Under the pieces are notes generated by a model. The model saw only the letters and a program-made list of their open reading frames with translations. It was not told the origin of the DNA and did no database searches. Of a stretch of DNA of 64,000 nt, positions 1,058 to 63,744 are shown in pieces. The stretch's first letter is position 1, and the number at the start of each line of letters is the position of its first letter. A program made the position numbers and the translations under genes. Source of the DNA: Enchytraeus crypticus (taxonomy: Eukaryota > Annelida > Clitellata > Enchytraeida > Enchytraeidae); NCBI GenBank assembly GCA_905160935.1, contig CAJHZI010000495.1, forward strand, positions 1,672,001-1,736,000. Reading direction: 5' to 3'.

Positions 1058-4000
1058 GCTTTCTTCAGAGTCGGTAGACCTGAGCTCAGCGATGCTCGCG
1101 GAGAGAGGCTGAGTCTCGCCATCTTTCTGCGACGTGTGAATACGCTGACTCAGCACAGATTTACCAGGCGTCTTGCACTTGTCCAGCTCGGCCTTTTTGC
1201 TCGTGATGATCTTCTTCAGCAAGCCCGCGTCCTAGACGATCAGCGCATCAATAACTACCGTCAACATCTAAGGCCTCTGGTCTTCTCTTGCAAAATTTCA
1301 TCACATGTTAAGAAATGACGTGAGAATTTTGTATAATTGATGGAAAGTGTGAATTGGTGAGAATTAGTTCTGCTATAGATGCTTTGGTAAGATGAATACA
1401 CTCTAGATAATATTAGTCAAAGATTCATATAACATATAATGTCACTAATTCATTGGGCATTTAATTCGAGTACCAAGTCACATATAACAACGTCTGAAAA
1501 AATAGTAAGTAAATTTGTCAATTTCAAACAATCTATACAGCCAATTTTTAATGATCTTTAACCAAGCTGACTCTGTTATTTTATTACGCTTTTGTCCTTT
1601 TTCTAAAATATGCGAAATAAAGTTTTTTAAATTAATTTTTTATTTTATCATACATACGAAGTCCAATTGTAAGAAAAAAAACTATTAGAAATACAAATGT
1701 GTACAAGTAAGAAAAGACATCTTGAATGAAGAGAATGCATGTTTAAATATAAGTCTCATAAACCAATGAAACTCAGACTTTTATGAAATATTGACCGTAA
1801 TACTTGTCATAAATGATCAATAGGGATAAGAACAATATTAAGTGTATTTATAAAGCACCGCTCTATGCTAAATGCCACAGTAGCGCTGAATGTACAGTGA
1901 AGGTCAAGTATAGCCTAGTGGTAGAATGACACAATAGGGATGACAGATGATAATGAAAAATTACTTCGATAACAATTATTTTGAAAGAAAGATACCGCAC
2001 ACATTTAGACTATGAAAGTACTATATACGTATGTATGTTTATTATAAATACGTTGTATATGAAGACAGGAACGAGTGTTGTTGGATAGTGTAAAGTTCCG
2101 CTCATATGTAGACATTTTTACGAGTTTAGATATTAATTTAAATGTAATTGTTATTTAGCTTATGATTACTATTGAACTCTTTCTGTAAAGTAGTCTCGAA
2201 GACAGAATTCGGCCATGACACTGCTATATAAGTTTTTGTTGTTAATAATAATAATAATAATAATATCCATACAAGAAGTGCGTACCTTGTATATGAGAGA
2301 GCTGGGCTCGTTGAACGTCCGGGCGTTCTGTAGCATGAGCTGCAGGTCTGCAGACATCTCGTCCAGTGACGAGTACTCACAAGCCTGGATCTTCCTCGCT
2401 ATGCCGCGCAGATCCATCGGGTTCTTTATCACCTTGTAGTACTCGGCGTACTTCTGTACATACAATACAGTACACCAGTAATCAATGGTTACCATAAAAT
2501 TCATCAGTAATAAACAAGCATAATACTGTACACCAGTAGTCAATAAGTACAACATAGTACACCAGTAGTCAACAAGTACAGCATAGTACACTAGTAGTCA
2601 ATAAATACAGCATAGCATACCAGTAGTCAACAAGTACAGCATAGTACACCAGTAGTCAACAAGTACAACATAATACACCTGTAGTCAAAAAGTACACCAT
2701 AGTACACCAGTAGTCAAAAAGTACACCATAGTACACCAGTAGTCAATAAGTACAACATAGTACATCAGTACTCAACAAGTCTAGTCAATAAATACAGCAT
2801 AGCACACCAGTAGTCAATATATACAGCATAGTACACCAGTACTCAACAAGTCTAGTCAATAAATACAGCATAGTACACCAGTAGTCAATATATACAGCAT
2901 AGTACACCAGTAGTCAGCAAGTACAACACAGTACACCAGTAGTCAACAAGTACAACATAGTACACCAGTAGTCAATAAGTACAACATAGTACACCAGTAG
3001 TCAACAAGTACAGCAGAGTACACCAATTGTCAAAAAGTACAGCAGAGTACACCAGTAGTCAATAAGTACAGCATAGTACACCAATTAGACCAAACAATGG
3101 CTAGAACTCTACTGTTAGACTATATAATGACTAGAACACTACTGTTAGACTAAACAATAACTAGAACTCTACTGCTAGACTAACAATGACTAGAACTCTA
3201 CTGTTAGACTAAACAATGACTAGAACTCTACTTTTAGACTAAACAATGACTAGAACTCTACTGTTAGACTAAACAATGACTAGAACTCTACTGTTAGACT
3301 AAACAATGACTAGAACTCTACTGTTAGACTAAGCAATGACTATAACTCTACTAAATAATGACTAGAACTCTACTGTTCGACTATACAATGACTAGAACTC
3401 TAATGTTAGACTATACAATGACTAGAATTCTACTGTTAGACTATACATTGACTAGAACTCTACTGTAAGACTAAACAGTGACGAGAACTCTATTGTTAGA
3501 CCAAACAATGGCTAGAACTCTACTGTTAGACTAAACAATGGCTAGAACTCTACTGTTAGACTATACAATGGCTAGAACTCTACTGTTCGACTAAACAATG
3601 GCTAGAACTCTACTGTTAGACTAAACAATGACTAGAACTCTACTGTTAGACTATATAATGACTAGAACACTACTGTTAGACTAAACAATAACTAGAACTC
3701 TACTGCTAGACTAACAATGACTAGAACTCTACTGTTAGACTAAACAATGACTAGAACTCTACTGTTAGACTAAACAATGACTAGAACTCTACTGTTAGAC
3801 TAAACAATGACTAGAACTCTACTGTTAGACTAAACAATGACTAGAACTCTACTGTTAGACTAAGCAATGACTATAACTCTACTAAATAATGACTAGAACT
3901 CTACTGTTCGACTATACAATGACTAGAACTCTAATGTTAGACTATACAATGACTAGAATTCTACTGTTAGACTATACATTGACTAGAACTCTACTGTAAG

Positions 4001-7000
4001 ACTAAACAGTGACGAGAACTCTATTGTTAGACCAAACAATGGCTAGAACTCTACTGTTAGACTAAACAATGGCTAGAACTCTACTGTTAGACTATACAAT
4101 GGCTAGAACTCTACTGTTCGACTAAACAATGGCTAGAACTCTACTGTTAGACTAAACAATGACTAGAACTCTACTGTTAGACTATACAATGGCTAGAACT
4201 CTACTGTTAGACTAAACAATGACGAGAACTCTACTGTTAGACCTAAACAATGGCTAGAACTCTACTGTTAGACTAAACAATGACTAGAACTCTATTGTTA
4301 GACTAAACCATGACTAGAACTCTACTAAACAATGACTAGAACTCTACCAAACAATGACTATAACTCTATAGTTAAGCAACTCCAAACCTTTCTGGACGGC
4401 AGTACTTTGAATATATCACTCAGATTTCTATTTCCTGAAGTAGCGTTGAGAACAGCTGCAAATAGCTGCTCGTACTGAGTCATCTTATTAGCAGCTGATG
4501 AGTCATCGCTGCCTCCTGCTGCTGCAGCAGCAGACAGCTGTCTCCGGGTGGGTCCTCCAGTCAGTCGAGCTGAGGATCTACCACGCCGGGTCTTAGCTGA
4601 GGCAGGGGTCGTCGAAGTTGTCTCCTGAAAAACACTCATCCATGTTAAGTCATGTTTTGTCATTCAAATGAGGAAACTGACCTTAACATTAGCTTTATCT
4701 TTTTTCATCCATGTTATGTCATGTTTTTTTTGTTTAGAATCATTTATTTGTTCATCACAGCACAGATTATACAAACTATAGAAACGTGCGTGTAGTTCGA
4801 TAAACAAATAACAATACAAAAGAGGCTACCATAAAAGAGCCATAGCTCTGTTCGGTAATACTAAAATTAGTAGCTATAGAAGAGTCTACTTGAGTATGAA
4901 ATACAAAAAAATTTCAATTACATTACCAAGACATGTTTTTTCATTCGAGTGAGGAAACTGACGTTATCACAATATATAGGATGAGAACATTTACCTCTAT
5001 CTGCATATCCTCCACCTCCGATCCAGACGACAGAAAGCTTTGAGCCGTCTCCACCTCCTCCGATGTGCCATCCGGCCGTTGAGCCGCTTTTACCTCCGAC
5101 GCCAGGACTTCCCCGGTATTTGAACTCTCAACCAACGTCTCAGCACTCGACTGCTCACTCAACGTGACTGACGTTGTACTCAAAACCTTCAGCTTCAGAA
5201 CGGGCACTCTCAGCTGTCATATACAACGAGTAGTTGAAGAAAAATTACGTCAGAAATAACATCGCATATTTTGCCAGCGGATCAGAATCTATAATTATAC
5301 AGCAACTGTCTATTAGAAATATTCACCATTACCCCATCGCATCAACAAAATAGGTTAAATTTTACTACAAGCAATACACATCTGTACTGCTACACATATG
5401 CGAGCAGCACACTGAGCTCAGTCAATCATTTATTTAATTATTTCCTTAATTTAAGAAGTTTTACCATTCCACAGAATTTTTAAAGAATTTTCACAATAAA
5501 CTATTATAATCTATTTCTAGTGGGTTTAATGTCAATACGAAATTGTAAGTAGTAAGATAGCAGAACTGCACATTTTGATAATTCTATAAAGCAGAAATCA
5601 ATATTCTTACAAATTTCACGGAAGACGGATAAAAATAGAGTCAACAATATGAAAAGAGGAAAACTGGAATGTTTAGTTAATTACCTAAAAATTCCAGGAA
5701 AGGAATTTATTCTTGTTAATAAACTAATGGCAGAAAGTTAATGATAAATGATTCCCAAAAATCTTATATTGAAATGTTTTGAAGGTATAAACAAGTTAAT
5801 CCCTTCACAAATGACAATGCCAAAGCCATACCACATGTAGATTGGGAAATAGGCTTTTAATGTGGCTTTCCATTGCCTTTATCAATTTTTGCTTAGATGC
5901 CTCTTACGATACGTGCAGGTAACGGTTAGTCTATTCTCCAGTGTTCCGGACACAAAACGTAAAGAATAATAATAAAAAATTCTTCACAAATAAATAAAAT
6001 AATAAACAATCTTCATATGAATGACAACCATTTGCAGAAACATGATAGCACTGAACTACAACACCTCGTTCATACCTCAGGCTTCACAGGTTCAACCACT
6101 GGCTCAGCCACTGCGGTGCCCTCGCTTGACTCAATCAACGAGGATCTTGTTTCCTCGTCCGTGGCGTCGTCGTACTCGAATCCGCTATGACGACTCTCCA
6201 CTCGCTCTTCCAGAGTCGAGTCTCTCTCGTCGGGGTCATCTCCGGCGTACTGGTCCACCACGTCCTGTCCGAGCGCCACCACGACTAGACGTGATTTCTG
6301 CATGCTGAACAACTGCCAGAGGTCAACGGCCTGCTGGTGTTCTGCCGATGAGCTCTGCAAATATATATTAAAGGAATAATACTAGAGTTCTAGTCATTGT
6401 TTAGTCTAACAGTAGAGTTCTAGTCATTGTATAGTCCAACAGTAGAGTTCTCATCATTGTTTAGTCTAACAGTAGAGTTCTAGCCATTGTATAGTCGAAC
6501 AGTAGAGTTCTAGTCATTGTATAGTCTAACAGTAGAGTTCTAGTCATTGTTTAGTCTAACAGTAGAGTTCTAGTCATTGTATAGTGGAGTTCTAGTCATT
6601 GTATAGTCTAACAGTAGAGTTCTAGTCATTATATAGTCTAACAGTAGAGTTATAATCATTGTTTAGTCTAACAGTAGAGTTCTAGCCATTGTATAGTCTA
6701 ACAGTAGAGTTCTAGTCATTGTTTAGTCTAACAGTAGAGTTCTAAAAAAATATTACTAATAATAATAAAGGTTTAAGGTCTGTTTCCTCAAACAAGGATG
6801 ATGTCAGGGACGTCATATCAGTCAAAAGAATTATACGTTTTATTTTATTAAACAATTTCAAATTTAAACGAATGGAAGTCTTAAATAGGGATTGGCCTGT
6901 GGTGTTGTGTAGGACAGAGAGGATTTGAGACAGTCTATTCGTATCCCGACCCTGGTTAAACTGGGATTCAAGGGAAGATGATGATAATGATGATGATGAT

Positions 7001-14199: not shown

Positions 14200-15461
14200 C
14201 TGCGAACTGGGAAGTCAAAAGATGATAACATTGAACTGCGAGACTGCTCTAAGAGCAGCGTTAACCGGAGTGCCGCATGACGTTATTCATAGAGTATTTC
14301 AACATAATAGAAAAACGATATGTAGGTCCTAGTCTTGTACTGCTTTTTGTACAACAAATTAAGTGTGTTGTCATCAAAATAACAGTCTTCTAATTTATTA
14401 CTGTTTTTGCATTTTTCTTGCCCCTGGCTGGAATGCGATCCTGATCTTTTATACTATTTAATAGATCATCCCGTTGGGCAACTTAGCAATTCATTTTCTA
14501 TATACTGTAGCGTCGAGCCCTGGAACTACTGTTGACATTACAGTTGCTGAATATCTAACATTTTGAATTAGTTCAAAACGTTAATTTTCCCCCGTCATTA
14601 ACGTACTATTAAAGCAGAAAACTCACGTTGAATTTGCCTTTATTCTTCTCTAAACATTTGTGATTTCTTTTGGAAATTCAAACATTTTCTTCTTTCCTAT
14701 TTAATGTCTTGTCTATTGATTCTTGGTACAATTATTTCAGTAAAATTATAATTACATGAATATCCTCAGCAACCGTAATGAATCCTTGATAAGCCTTGCA
14801 TTCATGAAGTGCATCAGATGTAGTATAGGCTATAATGCATAAAGTACCAGAAAGGATGATGTAATATAACATTGACATTTACTTGAGTGTTGTGGATTAT
14901 GATGTTTAAATCAAAAATTGTTTATTGTTAAAAGCATTTTTCCTTTGCTAGGTAGTAGGTATATATATATAGATGTGCTAGATAGATACTTGGAAAAAAG
15001 TAAACCTAATAAATTGGAATGTCTGAATGTAGTATAAAATGCCTACAGAAAAAGAAAACATTATAACCATATCTAATATAGTAAGTCTGATATAAGGCTG
15101 CAGGTGTCTATCATTTATAACTACGATATGACTGAAACTTTATTGTTTGGCAGATCAGTCATTATGCACAATTACATTTATTTAACTCTGAGGCTACCGG
15201 CCTGTTTTGTGGAAGTTTTTGAGGTACGTTACGTCATTACGTATGTTCCATTATCGAGCTATTGCCATTGTTTTTATTTATTCACGATACTAACGAAGAA
15301 TTTATCAATTTAATTCTAAAACTTAACAATAAATTAACTTTCATTAAAAAGAAGCTTTGCTGTGTGATATTAATTAATTGTTATAAAGAAAACAGTAACT
15401 TTTACTTTTAATCTTCTTACATACCTAACATATTTAATATTCTTAAATACCTACAGCTTAT

Positions 15462-24865: not shown

Positions 24866-25173
24866 TCTATATCTTACTGCCTTACTCAATATCTTACTCT
24901 ATATCTTAATCTTACTCTATATCTTACTCTATATCTTAATCTTACTCTATACTTAATCTTACTCTATATCTTACTCTATATCTTAATCTTACTCTATACT
25001 TAATCTTACTCTATATCTTACTCTATATCTTAATCTTACTCTATACTTAATCTTACTCTATATCTTACTCTATATCTTAATCTTACTCTATACTTAATCT
25101 TACTCTATATCTTACTCTATATCTTAATCTTACTCTATACTTAATCTTACTCTATATCTTACTCTATATCTTA
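24866..25173. repeat. Compound minisatellite, about 50-bp higher-order unit
   Basis: Permutations of CTTACTCTATAT and CTTAATCTTACTCTATA make a unit of about 50 bp repeated about six times. It abuts the family A SINE at 25183. Confidence 0.9.
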
Positions 25174-25314
25174 CTTCGCCACTGGCTGGAGCCAGTGGCG
25201 AAGTCGGTAAGATACTCGACCGCAGATCATTTGATGCGGGTTCAAATCCTGGGCTTGCCCGTCACTGACATCGCTTTCGAGTGAGGAAACTGACGTTAAC
25301 CTTAGCTTTACCAG
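25174..25314 (+). mobile_element. SINE family A with inverted head duplication
   Basis: A full unit from GGCTGGAGCCAGTGGCGAAG to CTGACGTTAACCTTAGC. Just before it CTTCGCCACTGGCT is the reverse complement of the element's own first bases, so the element begins as a 14-bp palindrome. Confidence 0.82.
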
Positions 25315-25378
25315 CTTTACCTTGCTTATTTCCATAGTGTGAGCCATAGATGATATACCTATGGAATGGATCACTGTA

Positions 25379-25469
25379 TGGAGTGATGCATAATGGATGC
25401 ATCACTCCATAAAGTGATGCATCCACTATGCATCACTCCATAAAGTGATGCACTTTATGGAGTGATGCA
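25379..25469. repeat. Chain of overlapping palindromes
   Basis: TGGAGTGATGCA alternates with its complement. The last pair is TGCATCACTCCATAAAGTG (25429-25447) against CACTTTATGGAGTGATGCA (25451-25469), with 19-bp perfect arms and a 3-nt spacer. Shorter stems overlap it on the left. Confidence 0.88.
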
Positions 25470-25689: not shown

Positions 25690-26198
25690 GTGAAGTCGAC
25701 GTTGATGTCAGTTTTGTAAAGCGATATCGTTGACGGGCGAGCCCAAGATTTGGGCGAGCCCAAGATTTGGGCGAGCCCAAGATTTGGGCGAGCCCAAGAT
25801 TTGGGCGAGCCCAAGATTTGGGCGAGCCCAAGATTTGGGCGAGCCCAAGATTTGGGCGAGCCCAATTTTTGGGCGAGCCCAAGATTTGGGCGAGCCCAAG
25901 ATTTGGGCGAGCCCAAGATTTGGGCGAGCCCAAGATTTGGGCGAGCCCAAGATTTGGGCGAGCCCAAGATTTGGGCGAGCCCAAGATTTGGGCGAGCCCA
26001 AGATTTGGGCGAGCCCAAGATTTGGGCGAGCCCAAGATTTGGGCGAGCCCAAGATTTGGGCGAGCCCAAGATTTGGGCGAGCCCAAGATTTGGGCGAGCC
26101 CAAGATTTGATCTCGCACATACTGATCCACAATCGGATATCTTACCGTTATCGCCATCTTACCGATATCGCCACACTCACGAGCCACTTGCTCCAGCC
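25690..26198 (-). mobile_element. SINE family A interrupted by amplification of its own body
   Basis: The two ends match a family A copy in minus orientation: GTTGATGTCAGTTTTG and GACGGGCGAGCCCA on the left, CGCACATACTGATCCACAAT to CTTGCTCCAGCC on the right. Between them the SINE segment GGGCGAGCCCAAGATTT is repeated about 22 times. Confidence 0.88.
25735..26108. repeat. 17-bp minisatellite born inside a SINE, about 22 copies
   Basis: The unit is GCGAGCCCAAGATTTGG. All copies are identical except one with AATTTTT instead of AAGATTT near 25864. Because 17 is not a multiple of three all six frames stay open, which creates long spurious reading frames on both strands. Confidence 0.95.
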
Positions 26199-26436
26199 GG
26201 ATATTTTAAATGATAGATATTATCATGGATGAACATTATAGTGTGTGCGTGTCCTCTCGGCGAGAAAAGATCTGGATAAGATCAGAAGAGTTTTACATAA
26301 TAGCTAGCTCTTTGTAAATAATTAACACAGAATGCAGTGTGAATACTAATTTTATAAACCATTATTGAGTGGATGGATATTTATATCTTAAAAACTTCTA
26401 TTTCACATTCACAATTTTAAATACACGTATTAAGGA

Positions 26437-26509
26437 CTAAAGCCACGTTTAGCGTCAGTTTCCTGCCCACTAGCGTGTCAGCAACGGGGAGAGCACTGAA
26501 TTTGAACCA
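26437..26509 (-). mobile_element. Diverged SINE family A fragment
   Basis: GCGTCAGTTTCCTGCCCACT and GAGAGCACTGAATTTGAACC resemble an old subfamily also seen at 35745 and 61668. Confidence 0.5.
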
Positions 26510-33100: not shown

Positions 33101-36100
33101 TGCTGGAGTTAGCATTTATGGAAGAACAGAAGGAAGAAAAAGAATGAATATTGAGGAAATGGCAAAGAATAGAGTTTTGTGGAGGAACATCATAGAGAAA
33201 TCATTGGCTGAAACCAGTCCCAGCATGATCACATGACATGATATGTTTACGGAACTTTTTACTCTATGTTTATCTTACAAAAGTTTTGCTTGAGTTTGAA
33301 TCATCACCCTTGGGTTCAAATTCTTTAGAATCTAAAAATCATTCATGGAGTAAACAATAGAGTCAATCAGTATTTTGTACAAGTATAGGCATATTTCCTG
33401 GCATCGCATTTTAAATGTGGTGCATAACATTAGTTCTTCATTGATTTAGGGATTGACGTTTGACTGTTGCACTTACATTTTAGGTTCTGTAGGCATTTAA
33501 TAAATAAGGAATTAAGAACTTTGCAGATTCATTACAAAGTGATGTCAGACTGTTGTGCAATGCCAGAATTTTAGCATTCTGACAACTGTGCTCGGACGTG
33601 GCTACTATAAAGTAAACGTATATCATTAAGAGCCTCATTCTGACCTGCGATTAACAGATTTCTCAGTTTTAACAAGATTTTAAAAGAGATGATGCTGTGG
33701 TTTGCACATGTCATAAAAGATGACAAAGTACTAAGATCCAAACCAACGTCAGAAAGGGTATTCAGTTGGTGCTTAGGCTCCAGGAATTGCTACTAAACTT
33801 TCTAAAACAAATGGAAAAGAAGGTCGATTCCCCATTGAACTGGGATTCAAGGGAGGAAAATGATGATGATGATTAAAAGAGATGATTAATGTGATTATGC
33901 TGCTTTATGATTGGCAGGTTTCACAGGAGCAGATGATATAAAGAGTGTTACTGTGGGACTGGATGCTGTCTATGCTCTGGACTTTCTCATAGCAGGGTCT
34001 ACTGATAACTGCAAGTATGAAATACTTGTGCTTTATCCTGTTAATATTATATTTTGTTTAGATATTAAATTCACTAAAGTACAGGATACTCCTTTGGTGA
34101 TAGTCTTTTATGATAGTCTATCAAAGATTTTGTTTATAGTCTATATGATAGTCTATCAAAGATTTTGTTTATAGTCTATATGATAGTCTATCAAAGATTT
34201 TGTTTATAGTCTATATGATAGTCTATCAAAGATTTTGTTTATAGTCTATATGATAGTCTATCAAAGATTTAGGCCTATGCCCCATTTTGCAATCGTCATG
34301 AATACAATGTGTGTGCTTTTAGCTAACATTTCGACTTGTGAATCATTGTGGTACATTTCTTGAAGTTATTCTTTTATTTTCAGAAGTATTTTGATGTTAC
34401 ATGAAGTAGCCACTCTGCCGATGCTACAACAGAAAACAGGATATCTGCAGGTTTGTGAGCTACAGGAATGATGTTAAACTTGGCTTTTGCTGTGTTCACT
34501 GTTCCATTATCTCTTCCTGTACAAAATTTTGTTTGAACATCTGTTTGAAAATATTTTTTGCACTTGTGTTTATTAGCGCACTGAAGGAGTGTAAACAGCT
34601 CTTAAGTTTATGCTGTGCAGCAAAGTTAATAGAAATTATTTCACTAGATGTCTTTTAATTCTGAAAATAATTCACTTATCAAAGTTGCATTTAGGCTCAC
34701 TCAGCCTGTTCTTGTAAATCTTAGATTAATAGTATAAATTGACTGTTCATATAAGCCCATGATATTATATCTACATGTGCTATGCTTTAACATTATGCAG
34801 AGAAGTTTTGACATCGATGCCCGTTACTGCAGTATTTCTATTGTTGTTGCAGCATTTGTGGTATAGACTTCTTAGCTACTTTATTTTCCTTTTTTTTATC
34901 ACGTTAAGATCATCTCACACTTAGCGTTCACTTTTAAAAGCTAAAAGCTAATGTTAACGTCAGTTTCCTCATTCGAAAGCGATGTCAGTGACGGGCGAGC
35001 CAAGGATATGAACCCCGCACATACTGATCCGCGTTCGAATAACTTTCCGACATCGCCACTGGCTCTAGCCAGTGACATTTTGATTTGTGACATTCAAGAT
35101 TCACTTTTCTAATTTGTGGTTTCACAGGCGGCGGAGAATTTCTCGTTGCGTAACTTTCAGGCGTGGCTGCGCTCTCACCTCACGATCAATCCTTTTGGTA
35201 TCATGACCTGCGACACCAGCGGTCAGCGAGTAGACTGGCCTCTCCTAGGTAAACTATTTTCTCTCACTCTCTCTCTCTCTCTGTCTATCTCCCTCTCTCT
35301 CTCTCCTAGGTAAACAATTCTCTCTTTTTCTCTCTATCCCTTTCTCTCTCTCTCCTAGGTAAGCAATTCTCTCTTTTTTTCTCTCTCGCTCTCTCTCTCG
35401 CTCTCTCTTGTGTTCTGCCAACTGGCAGGTTCAAGGTTCCTTCTCACAGTGTGACGTCATCCTTAGTAAGAAGTTAAGAACTCCATAATAAATAGCAAGT
35501 TACCTGCTTAGTTTCCTCTTGCGATATATGCAGTTTACCGTGGGTTAGTTCTGTAGTACTCCAGGTTCAGCACTGGATGAAATTCAAAGTATGAAGCAAA
35601 TATTGTTTGTCTATTTGTTTATCACACGGGCACCAAGCATTACTTTTCAAAACCACCTGTGCTTGCACACTGCACAACAACCGATTAAGGATACTGATTT
35701 GATTTTATAATCTTATTTTATTGAAATGGCTATGCCTATACTTAATAAAGCTAAAGTCATGTTAGACGTCAGTTTCCTGATCGATAGCTTACTGGTGAAG
35801 GGGAAGTCACTGGATTTGAACCCTGTCCACGCACTGGATTTGAACGCTGTACATACTGATATGCTATCAAATTACTAACACTTATACCAACAGCTCAGCC
35901 CAGCTTTTATGCACTTCTTAGCACATAAATAAATAATAGTAGATATATTTAGTGAAAATGAATATATCTACGATTATTTATTTATTTTTTTAGTTATAAA
36001 CTTTACTTACAGCTGATATTTTGGTGATCATGCTATATTCCTTTTATGGATATTGAACTTATGTTTCTTGTATTGGTAATTTGGTGATTTTTATATTCTG

Positions 36101-50592: not shown

Positions 50593-50722
50593 GCTGGAGC
50601 CAGTGGTGAAGTCGGTAAGATATTCGACCGCGGATCAGTAGGTGCGGGTTCAAATCCTGGGCTCGCCCGTCACTGACATCGCTTTCGAGTGAGGAAACTG
50701 ACGTTAACCTTAGCTTTACCAG
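50593..50722 (+). mobile_element. SINE family A, full length
   Basis: GCTGGAGCCAGTGGTGAAGT, GGTAAGATATTCGACCGCGG, GGGTTCAAATCCTGGGCTCG and GGAAACTGACGTTAACCTTA; good match to the consensus. Confidence 0.85.

Positions 50723-56295: not shown

Positions 56296-63744
<7,449 letters not shown>

Follow-up and report, generated by a model that had tools for sequence, protein, structure and literature searches.

Minisatellites derived from transposable elements (TEs) are already well documented. In the human genome, 7,276 TE-derived arrays have been reported, of which 2,663 originate from Alu, and one AluJo array of 17 × 52 bp is shown (Ahmed and Liang, 2012; PMC3389668); according to that paper, known mechanisms account for only about 6% of the TE-derived cases, and the start of such arrays is mostly unexplained. 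In the mouse, (GGCAGA)n, a minisatellite from a segment of the SINE B1, is named as a VNTR family with a 6-bp unit (Bois, 1998, as listed in PMC6947457 and PMC9659126), and the repeats Hy/Pol III of Hydromantes and Satellite 1 of Xenopus, which these two sources list as satellite DNA or as a tandem family, come from a tRNA-related SINE-like region (PMC9659126; PMC6947457). The array described here, located in the annelid Enchytraeus crypticus, resembles the human Alu-derived minisatellites in that SINE segments have expanded in place, mostly at single loci, and differs from them, as far as the set in PMC3389668 with its units of over 20 bp is concerned, in its 17-bp unit, in the tRNA-like head of the SINE, and in the family and organism involved. 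It shares with the mouse B1 repeat an origin in a SINE segment and with the Hydromantes and Xenopus repeats a tRNA-related, SINE-like source; unlike the former, each array here has a unit of its own, and unlike the latter, it is a small array at a single locus. A literature search returned no paper on a SINE B box with an internal duplication or on a tRNA-derived SINE with a tandem array and, judged by the titles listed, nothing closer than papers on TE-derived minisatellites. The array is notable mainly for the recurrence of such expansions within one SINE family.

The locus lies within the window, i.e., the whole stretch of 64,000 nucleotides that was analysed (GenBank assembly GCA_905160935.1, contig CAJHZI010000495.1, positions 1,672,001 to 1,736,000 of the forward strand), and comprises the following features, numbered from the first nucleotide of the window:

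25690 to 26198, minus strand: family A SINE insertion with a tRNA-like head, split by the array (nhmmer, alignment with 12 other copies, ends read from the sequence).
25690 to 25734, minus strand: 3′ remainder of the SINE, consensus positions 83 to about 122, with a 6-bp deletion (alignment).
25735 to 26109, minus strand: 17-bp minisatellite of 22 units plus 1 bp (TRF and unit-by-unit listing).
25854 to 25870, minus strand: sole variant unit (unit 8), plus-strand GGGCGAGCCCAATTTTT, with two adjacent substitutions (unit listing).
26109 to 26198, minus strand: 5′ remainder of the SINE (A-box side), with extra duplicated sequence, about 30 bases beyond the consensus (alignment).
26139 to 26173, minus strand: second, separate tandem duplication in the A-box region, a 17-bp unit present 2.1 times (TRF, alignment).

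A search with nhmmer matched the left flank (25692–25752, minus strand) to positions 66–132 of the SINE model, its 3′-half (E = 1.5e-7), and the right flank (26092–26156, minus strand) to positions 18–83, its 5′-half (E = 2.2e-13). The two matches overlap by 18 model positions, about one unit, and both halves are in register. Alignment of the locus to 12 other family A copies, a check proposed in the preliminary description, placed the array unit at consensus positions 66–82 with one base changed, a segment that covers the latter portion of the B box together with the sequence immediately behind it. As in other TE-derived minisatellites, the repeated sequence belongs to the element that is found on both sides of it. 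The preliminary description had regarded the flanks as both halves of a normal family A SINE, the repeat unit as the SINE sequence between them, and the whole as a 17-bp body segment grown into a 22-copy minisatellite; TRF, the unit listing and the flank alignment bear this out, and the end points it had given, 25690 and 26198, lie close to the SINE ends read in the sequence.

The array unit is GGGCGAGCCCAAGATTT, and 22 whole units span positions 25735–26108. As had also been described, all copies but one are identical (21 of 22), the exception, unit 8, differing at two adjacent bases, and the array is open in all six frames because its 375 bp contain no stop codon on either strand. The six stop-free frames that cross it measure 134–170 aa from stop to stop, which is relevant to annotation, and a Pfam scan covering one of them found no family for that frame. 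Rfam matches inside the array, to the plant miRNA models MIR8024 and MIR904, fell below the gathering scores; these were set aside and taken as reflecting self-complementarity. Across the unit junction, the sequence at the B-box position is CGCCCAAATCT and not GGTTCAAATCC; with its B box disrupted in this way, the array is not expected to act as a Pol III element. The possibility that the array is a cluster of working B boxes was ruled out by this reading of the units, and no function is indicated for the array by its sequence.

The family A consensus, about 132 bp in length, was derived from the repeat at 25175–25320 and 11 further copies in the window. BLAST identified 12 copies in the window in addition to the copy split by the array, and these 12 differ from the majority consensus by 1.6–11.6% over the SINE body; a profile search showed further, weaker SINE matches in the window (e.g., 58498–58591 and 26437–26508). 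The 17-mer of the family unit, GGGCGAGCCCAGGATTT, occurs at 14,394 places in the genome (7247 forward and 7147 reverse; reversed control, 0), a figure that counts occurrences of the pattern by itself. High copy number and dispersal on both strands are what is expected of a SINE family. The A box, TGGCGAAGTCGG, and the B box, GGTTCAAATCC, fit what we take to be the Pol III box motifs. In the one copy tested, at 50597–50665, the tRNA resemblance of the head is weak: the alignment to the Rfam tRNA model extends from end to end (1–71) but scores 14.5 bits (gathering score, 29) with E = 1.3. ARAGORN called no tRNA within the window. The SINE-like tail, GAGGAAAC(T/G)GACGTTAA, also occurs without the head and stands five times before a (TTA)n-like run, and no LINE reading frame was tied to it. 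A search for target-site duplications found a word of at least 8 bp across the ends in none of 13 copies, a search that had no positive control and concerned diverged copies with uncertain tail ends; shared end words averaged 5.23, compared with 5.09 for mismatched pairs. Because no target-site duplication was found in these 13 copies, family structure and copy number are the grounds for regarding the insertion as a SINE, and the element is given this name with reservations. Several SINE copies (25175–25205 and other 5′ ends) start with the palindrome CACTGGCT-GG-AGCCAGTG, or nearly so, which extends into the flank.

The distribution of the array was analysed in the assembly of 524,188,772 bases in 802 contigs. 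The array 17-mer, GCGAGCCCAAGATTTGG, was found at 24 places in these 524 Mb, 20 in the array and four as singletons, and the reversed pattern at none, which excludes chance for the array. All four singletons were read, and each lies in a single-copy SINE (L001, L002, L003 and L009). A flexible pattern for two adjacent units matched only the array and one other locus, L030, a SINE in which a 22-bp unit covering nearly the same segment as the array unit is present twice. Of 91 candidate matches to the right flank (26110–26330), 40 were scored: the match at its own locus was the single one to span the whole flank, and the remaining 39 covered the SINE part alone. Since the genome-wide pattern searches and the right-flank comparison match the array here alone, it is a single event at one SINE among thousands; it occupies a single locus, with unexpanded copies of the element elsewhere, again as in a TE-derived minisatellite. 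The finding against which the preliminary description had set its own reading, a 17-bp array occurring genome-wide without SINE flanks, was not made with either the exact or the flexible patterns, and the SINE origin of the array therefore stands. In addition, an exact SINE-piece pattern had no matches in viral and bacterial/archaeal collections, and an exact two-unit pattern had none among viral contigs.

The array is not unique in kind: independent arrays of other segments are present in other family A copies. A pattern for a doubled tail matched at 31 places in 22 loci (reversed control, 9) and a pattern for a doubled B box at 55 places in 39 loci (reversed control, 0), with loci grouped by hand and the two counts not normalised against each other. 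Flanks were read for three of the 39 B-box loci (L053–L055) together with the one in the window, and for two of the 22 tail loci (L051 and L052); the rest may include sequences outside family A. L051 (an 18-bp unit present 6.1 times) and L052 (a 20-bp unit present 6.0 times) are arrays of the tail segment with clear SINE flanks. At L055, a 26-bp unit of the B box is present 7.7 times and is followed by the SINE 3′ part (E = 2.6e-11), and at L054, where a 13-bp unit is present 8.1 times, the match to the SINE 3′ part that follows is weak (E = 3e-5). L053 contains at least 20.7 copies of a 29-bp unit, the units matching positions 47–79 of the SINE model and the evidence for a SINE on the 5′ side being weak; within L053:76–681 (C795), at least 14 exact GGTTCAAATCC and at least four GGTTCCAATCC B boxes were counted, a possible B-box cluster. 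In the window SINE at 35745–35879, the B-box region is doubled with no further expansion. A survey of split SINEs in the window and in 20 stretches sampled from four hand-chosen contigs (190 readable kb) identified 42 SINE matches spanning the unit region, 14 in the window and 28 in the sampled stretches, and three split pairs on the same strand, namely the array, the doubled B box at 35745–35879, and L010, in which two tail pieces lie 150 bp apart.

The window as a whole contains 15 minisatellites (period of 10 or more, 3 or more copies, 80% match), which cover 7.54% of its bases, compared with 5,223 bp of about 185 kb (about 2.8%) in 19 sampled stretches, the half-N stretch L013 having been left out. 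Two of the arrays, at 3085–4368 and 6383–6744, share the same 30-bp unit in opposite orientation about 2 kb apart. The minisatellite at 24891–25173 stops no more than about 10 bp from the 5′ end of a SINE (25181), and an unrelated one at 57619–57845 lies within about 10 bp of the SINE tail fragment at 57591–57614. Matches to miRNA models on both strands at 25371–25448 and 61502–61582, below the gathering scores, were read as long inverted repeats. Exon-like pieces near the array include, according to the Pfam scan, a bromodomain, a FAD-binding domain and, slightly under the cut-off, a protein kinase match.

The best explanation of the array is, in all likelihood, that a 17-bp segment of an old minus-strand family A SINE was duplicated locally and grew in place to 22 units. 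The segment, which starts midway through the B box and stops shortly beyond it, would first have undergone a single tandem duplication in a short local event, such as slippage or template switching; additional slippage or unequal exchange would then have brought the duplicate to 22 units. An early stage would resemble the two-unit SINE L030. We infer both the engine, slippage or unequal exchange, and the initiating step. The microhomology at the unit ends amounts to one base (G); since this falls short of the direct repeats of the Haber and Louis model, given as 5–10 bp in one account of that model and 5–20 bp in another, slippage or template switching is named as the initiating step only tentatively.

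As for the age of the expansion, the 5′ SINE piece, including one unit, is off the consensus at 9 of 65 aligned positions (13.8%) and the 3′ piece, including one unit, at 8 of 51 (15.7%), the two highest values among the 13 copies measured, namely the 12 BLAST copies and the split one. The array units depart from their common sequence at only 2 of 374 positions. Because the flanks are far more diverged than the units, either the array grew long after the SINE had inserted or its units have been homogenised. The recent expansion proposed in the preliminary description is supported in the sense of recent relative to the SINE insertion; homogenisation by conversion or unequal crossing-over, however, would give the same picture as recent growth.

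The seed that had been proposed for the expansion did not hold. The array unit differs from the family at a single base, CAGG to CAAG, and the change to “AAGATTTGGGCG” cited in the preliminary description was a misreading, since the following unit begins with the GGG that stands behind TTT, which makes this a unit junction and not a mutation; after the last unit, the sequence continues with GATC. The idea that a change made the segment self-joining is not supported by L001, L002, L003 and L009, in which the exact unit followed by GG is present in single copy, and it is further disfavoured by the expansion of other segments of family A without that change. These four unexpanded SINEs rule out the base change as a sufficient seed. 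The changed base is also present, with one further difference, in the window copy at 61077, which is not expanded.

The alternative that survives best, although it is unlikely, attributes the expansion to hairpin folding: the self-complementary unit would fold back on itself during replication, making expansion particularly likely in this segment, and the fold would be strengthened by the single base change. The unit contains GGGC-GA-GCCC, and CCCAA-GAT-TTGGG is formed across the junction. As single-stranded DNA, six units reach −35.3 kcal/mol (z = −9.07 relative to shuffles), an energy reached by 40 of 1000 and 17 of 500 shuffled-unit arrays in two trials, and lower than the −31.5 obtained with the family base in place of the actual one. 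Per base, the array folds best of the 13 window arrays tested (−0.350, compared with 0 to −0.122), and the fold of the two-unit L030, a duplication of almost the same part of the SINE, is fairly strong too, its energy being attained by 27 of 500 shuffled-unit arrays. However, the five other SINE-segment arrays fold ordinarily, with shuffled arrays at least as good in 108 (L051), 303 (L052), 382 (L053), 500 (L054) and 423 (L055) of 500 trials; moreover, the four single-copy SINEs with the exact unit have not expanded, and the second hairpin, as read from the sequence, exists only after duplication. Because these five arrays of the family fold unremarkably, folding may help at the array locus but is not a general cause of SINE-segment expansion.

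An assembly artefact that inflated a shorter duplication would account for the identity of 21 of the 22 units, but it is very improbable, since the variant unit 8 marks a specific place in the array and since SINE-segment arrays with other periods are present in the same assembly. An independent satellite, into or next to which a SINE inserted, was rejected as scarcely credible: the window is indeed rich in minisatellites, but the unit is itself SINE sequence, both SINE halves flank it in register with the 18-position overlap on the model, and the exact and flexible patterns found no such array elsewhere in the genome.

Local duplication and growth in place within an old SINE thus remains the preferred reading of the locus. 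A broader proposal, that family A is a recurrent source of minisatellites from its B-box region and tail (units of 13, 17, 18, 20, 26 and 29 bp) and that some of the arrays, such as L053, bring together binding sites for Pol III factors and might thereby recruit TFIIIC and influence chromatin, is very unlikely. The locus itself is a clean case of minisatellite birth, with one array set against 14,394 places of the same segment, and the source segment, the two-unit L030 and arrays of other segments are all present in one genome. Such a SINE family would allow rates of duplication and expansion to be estimated segment by segment, which bears on how TE-derived arrays start.
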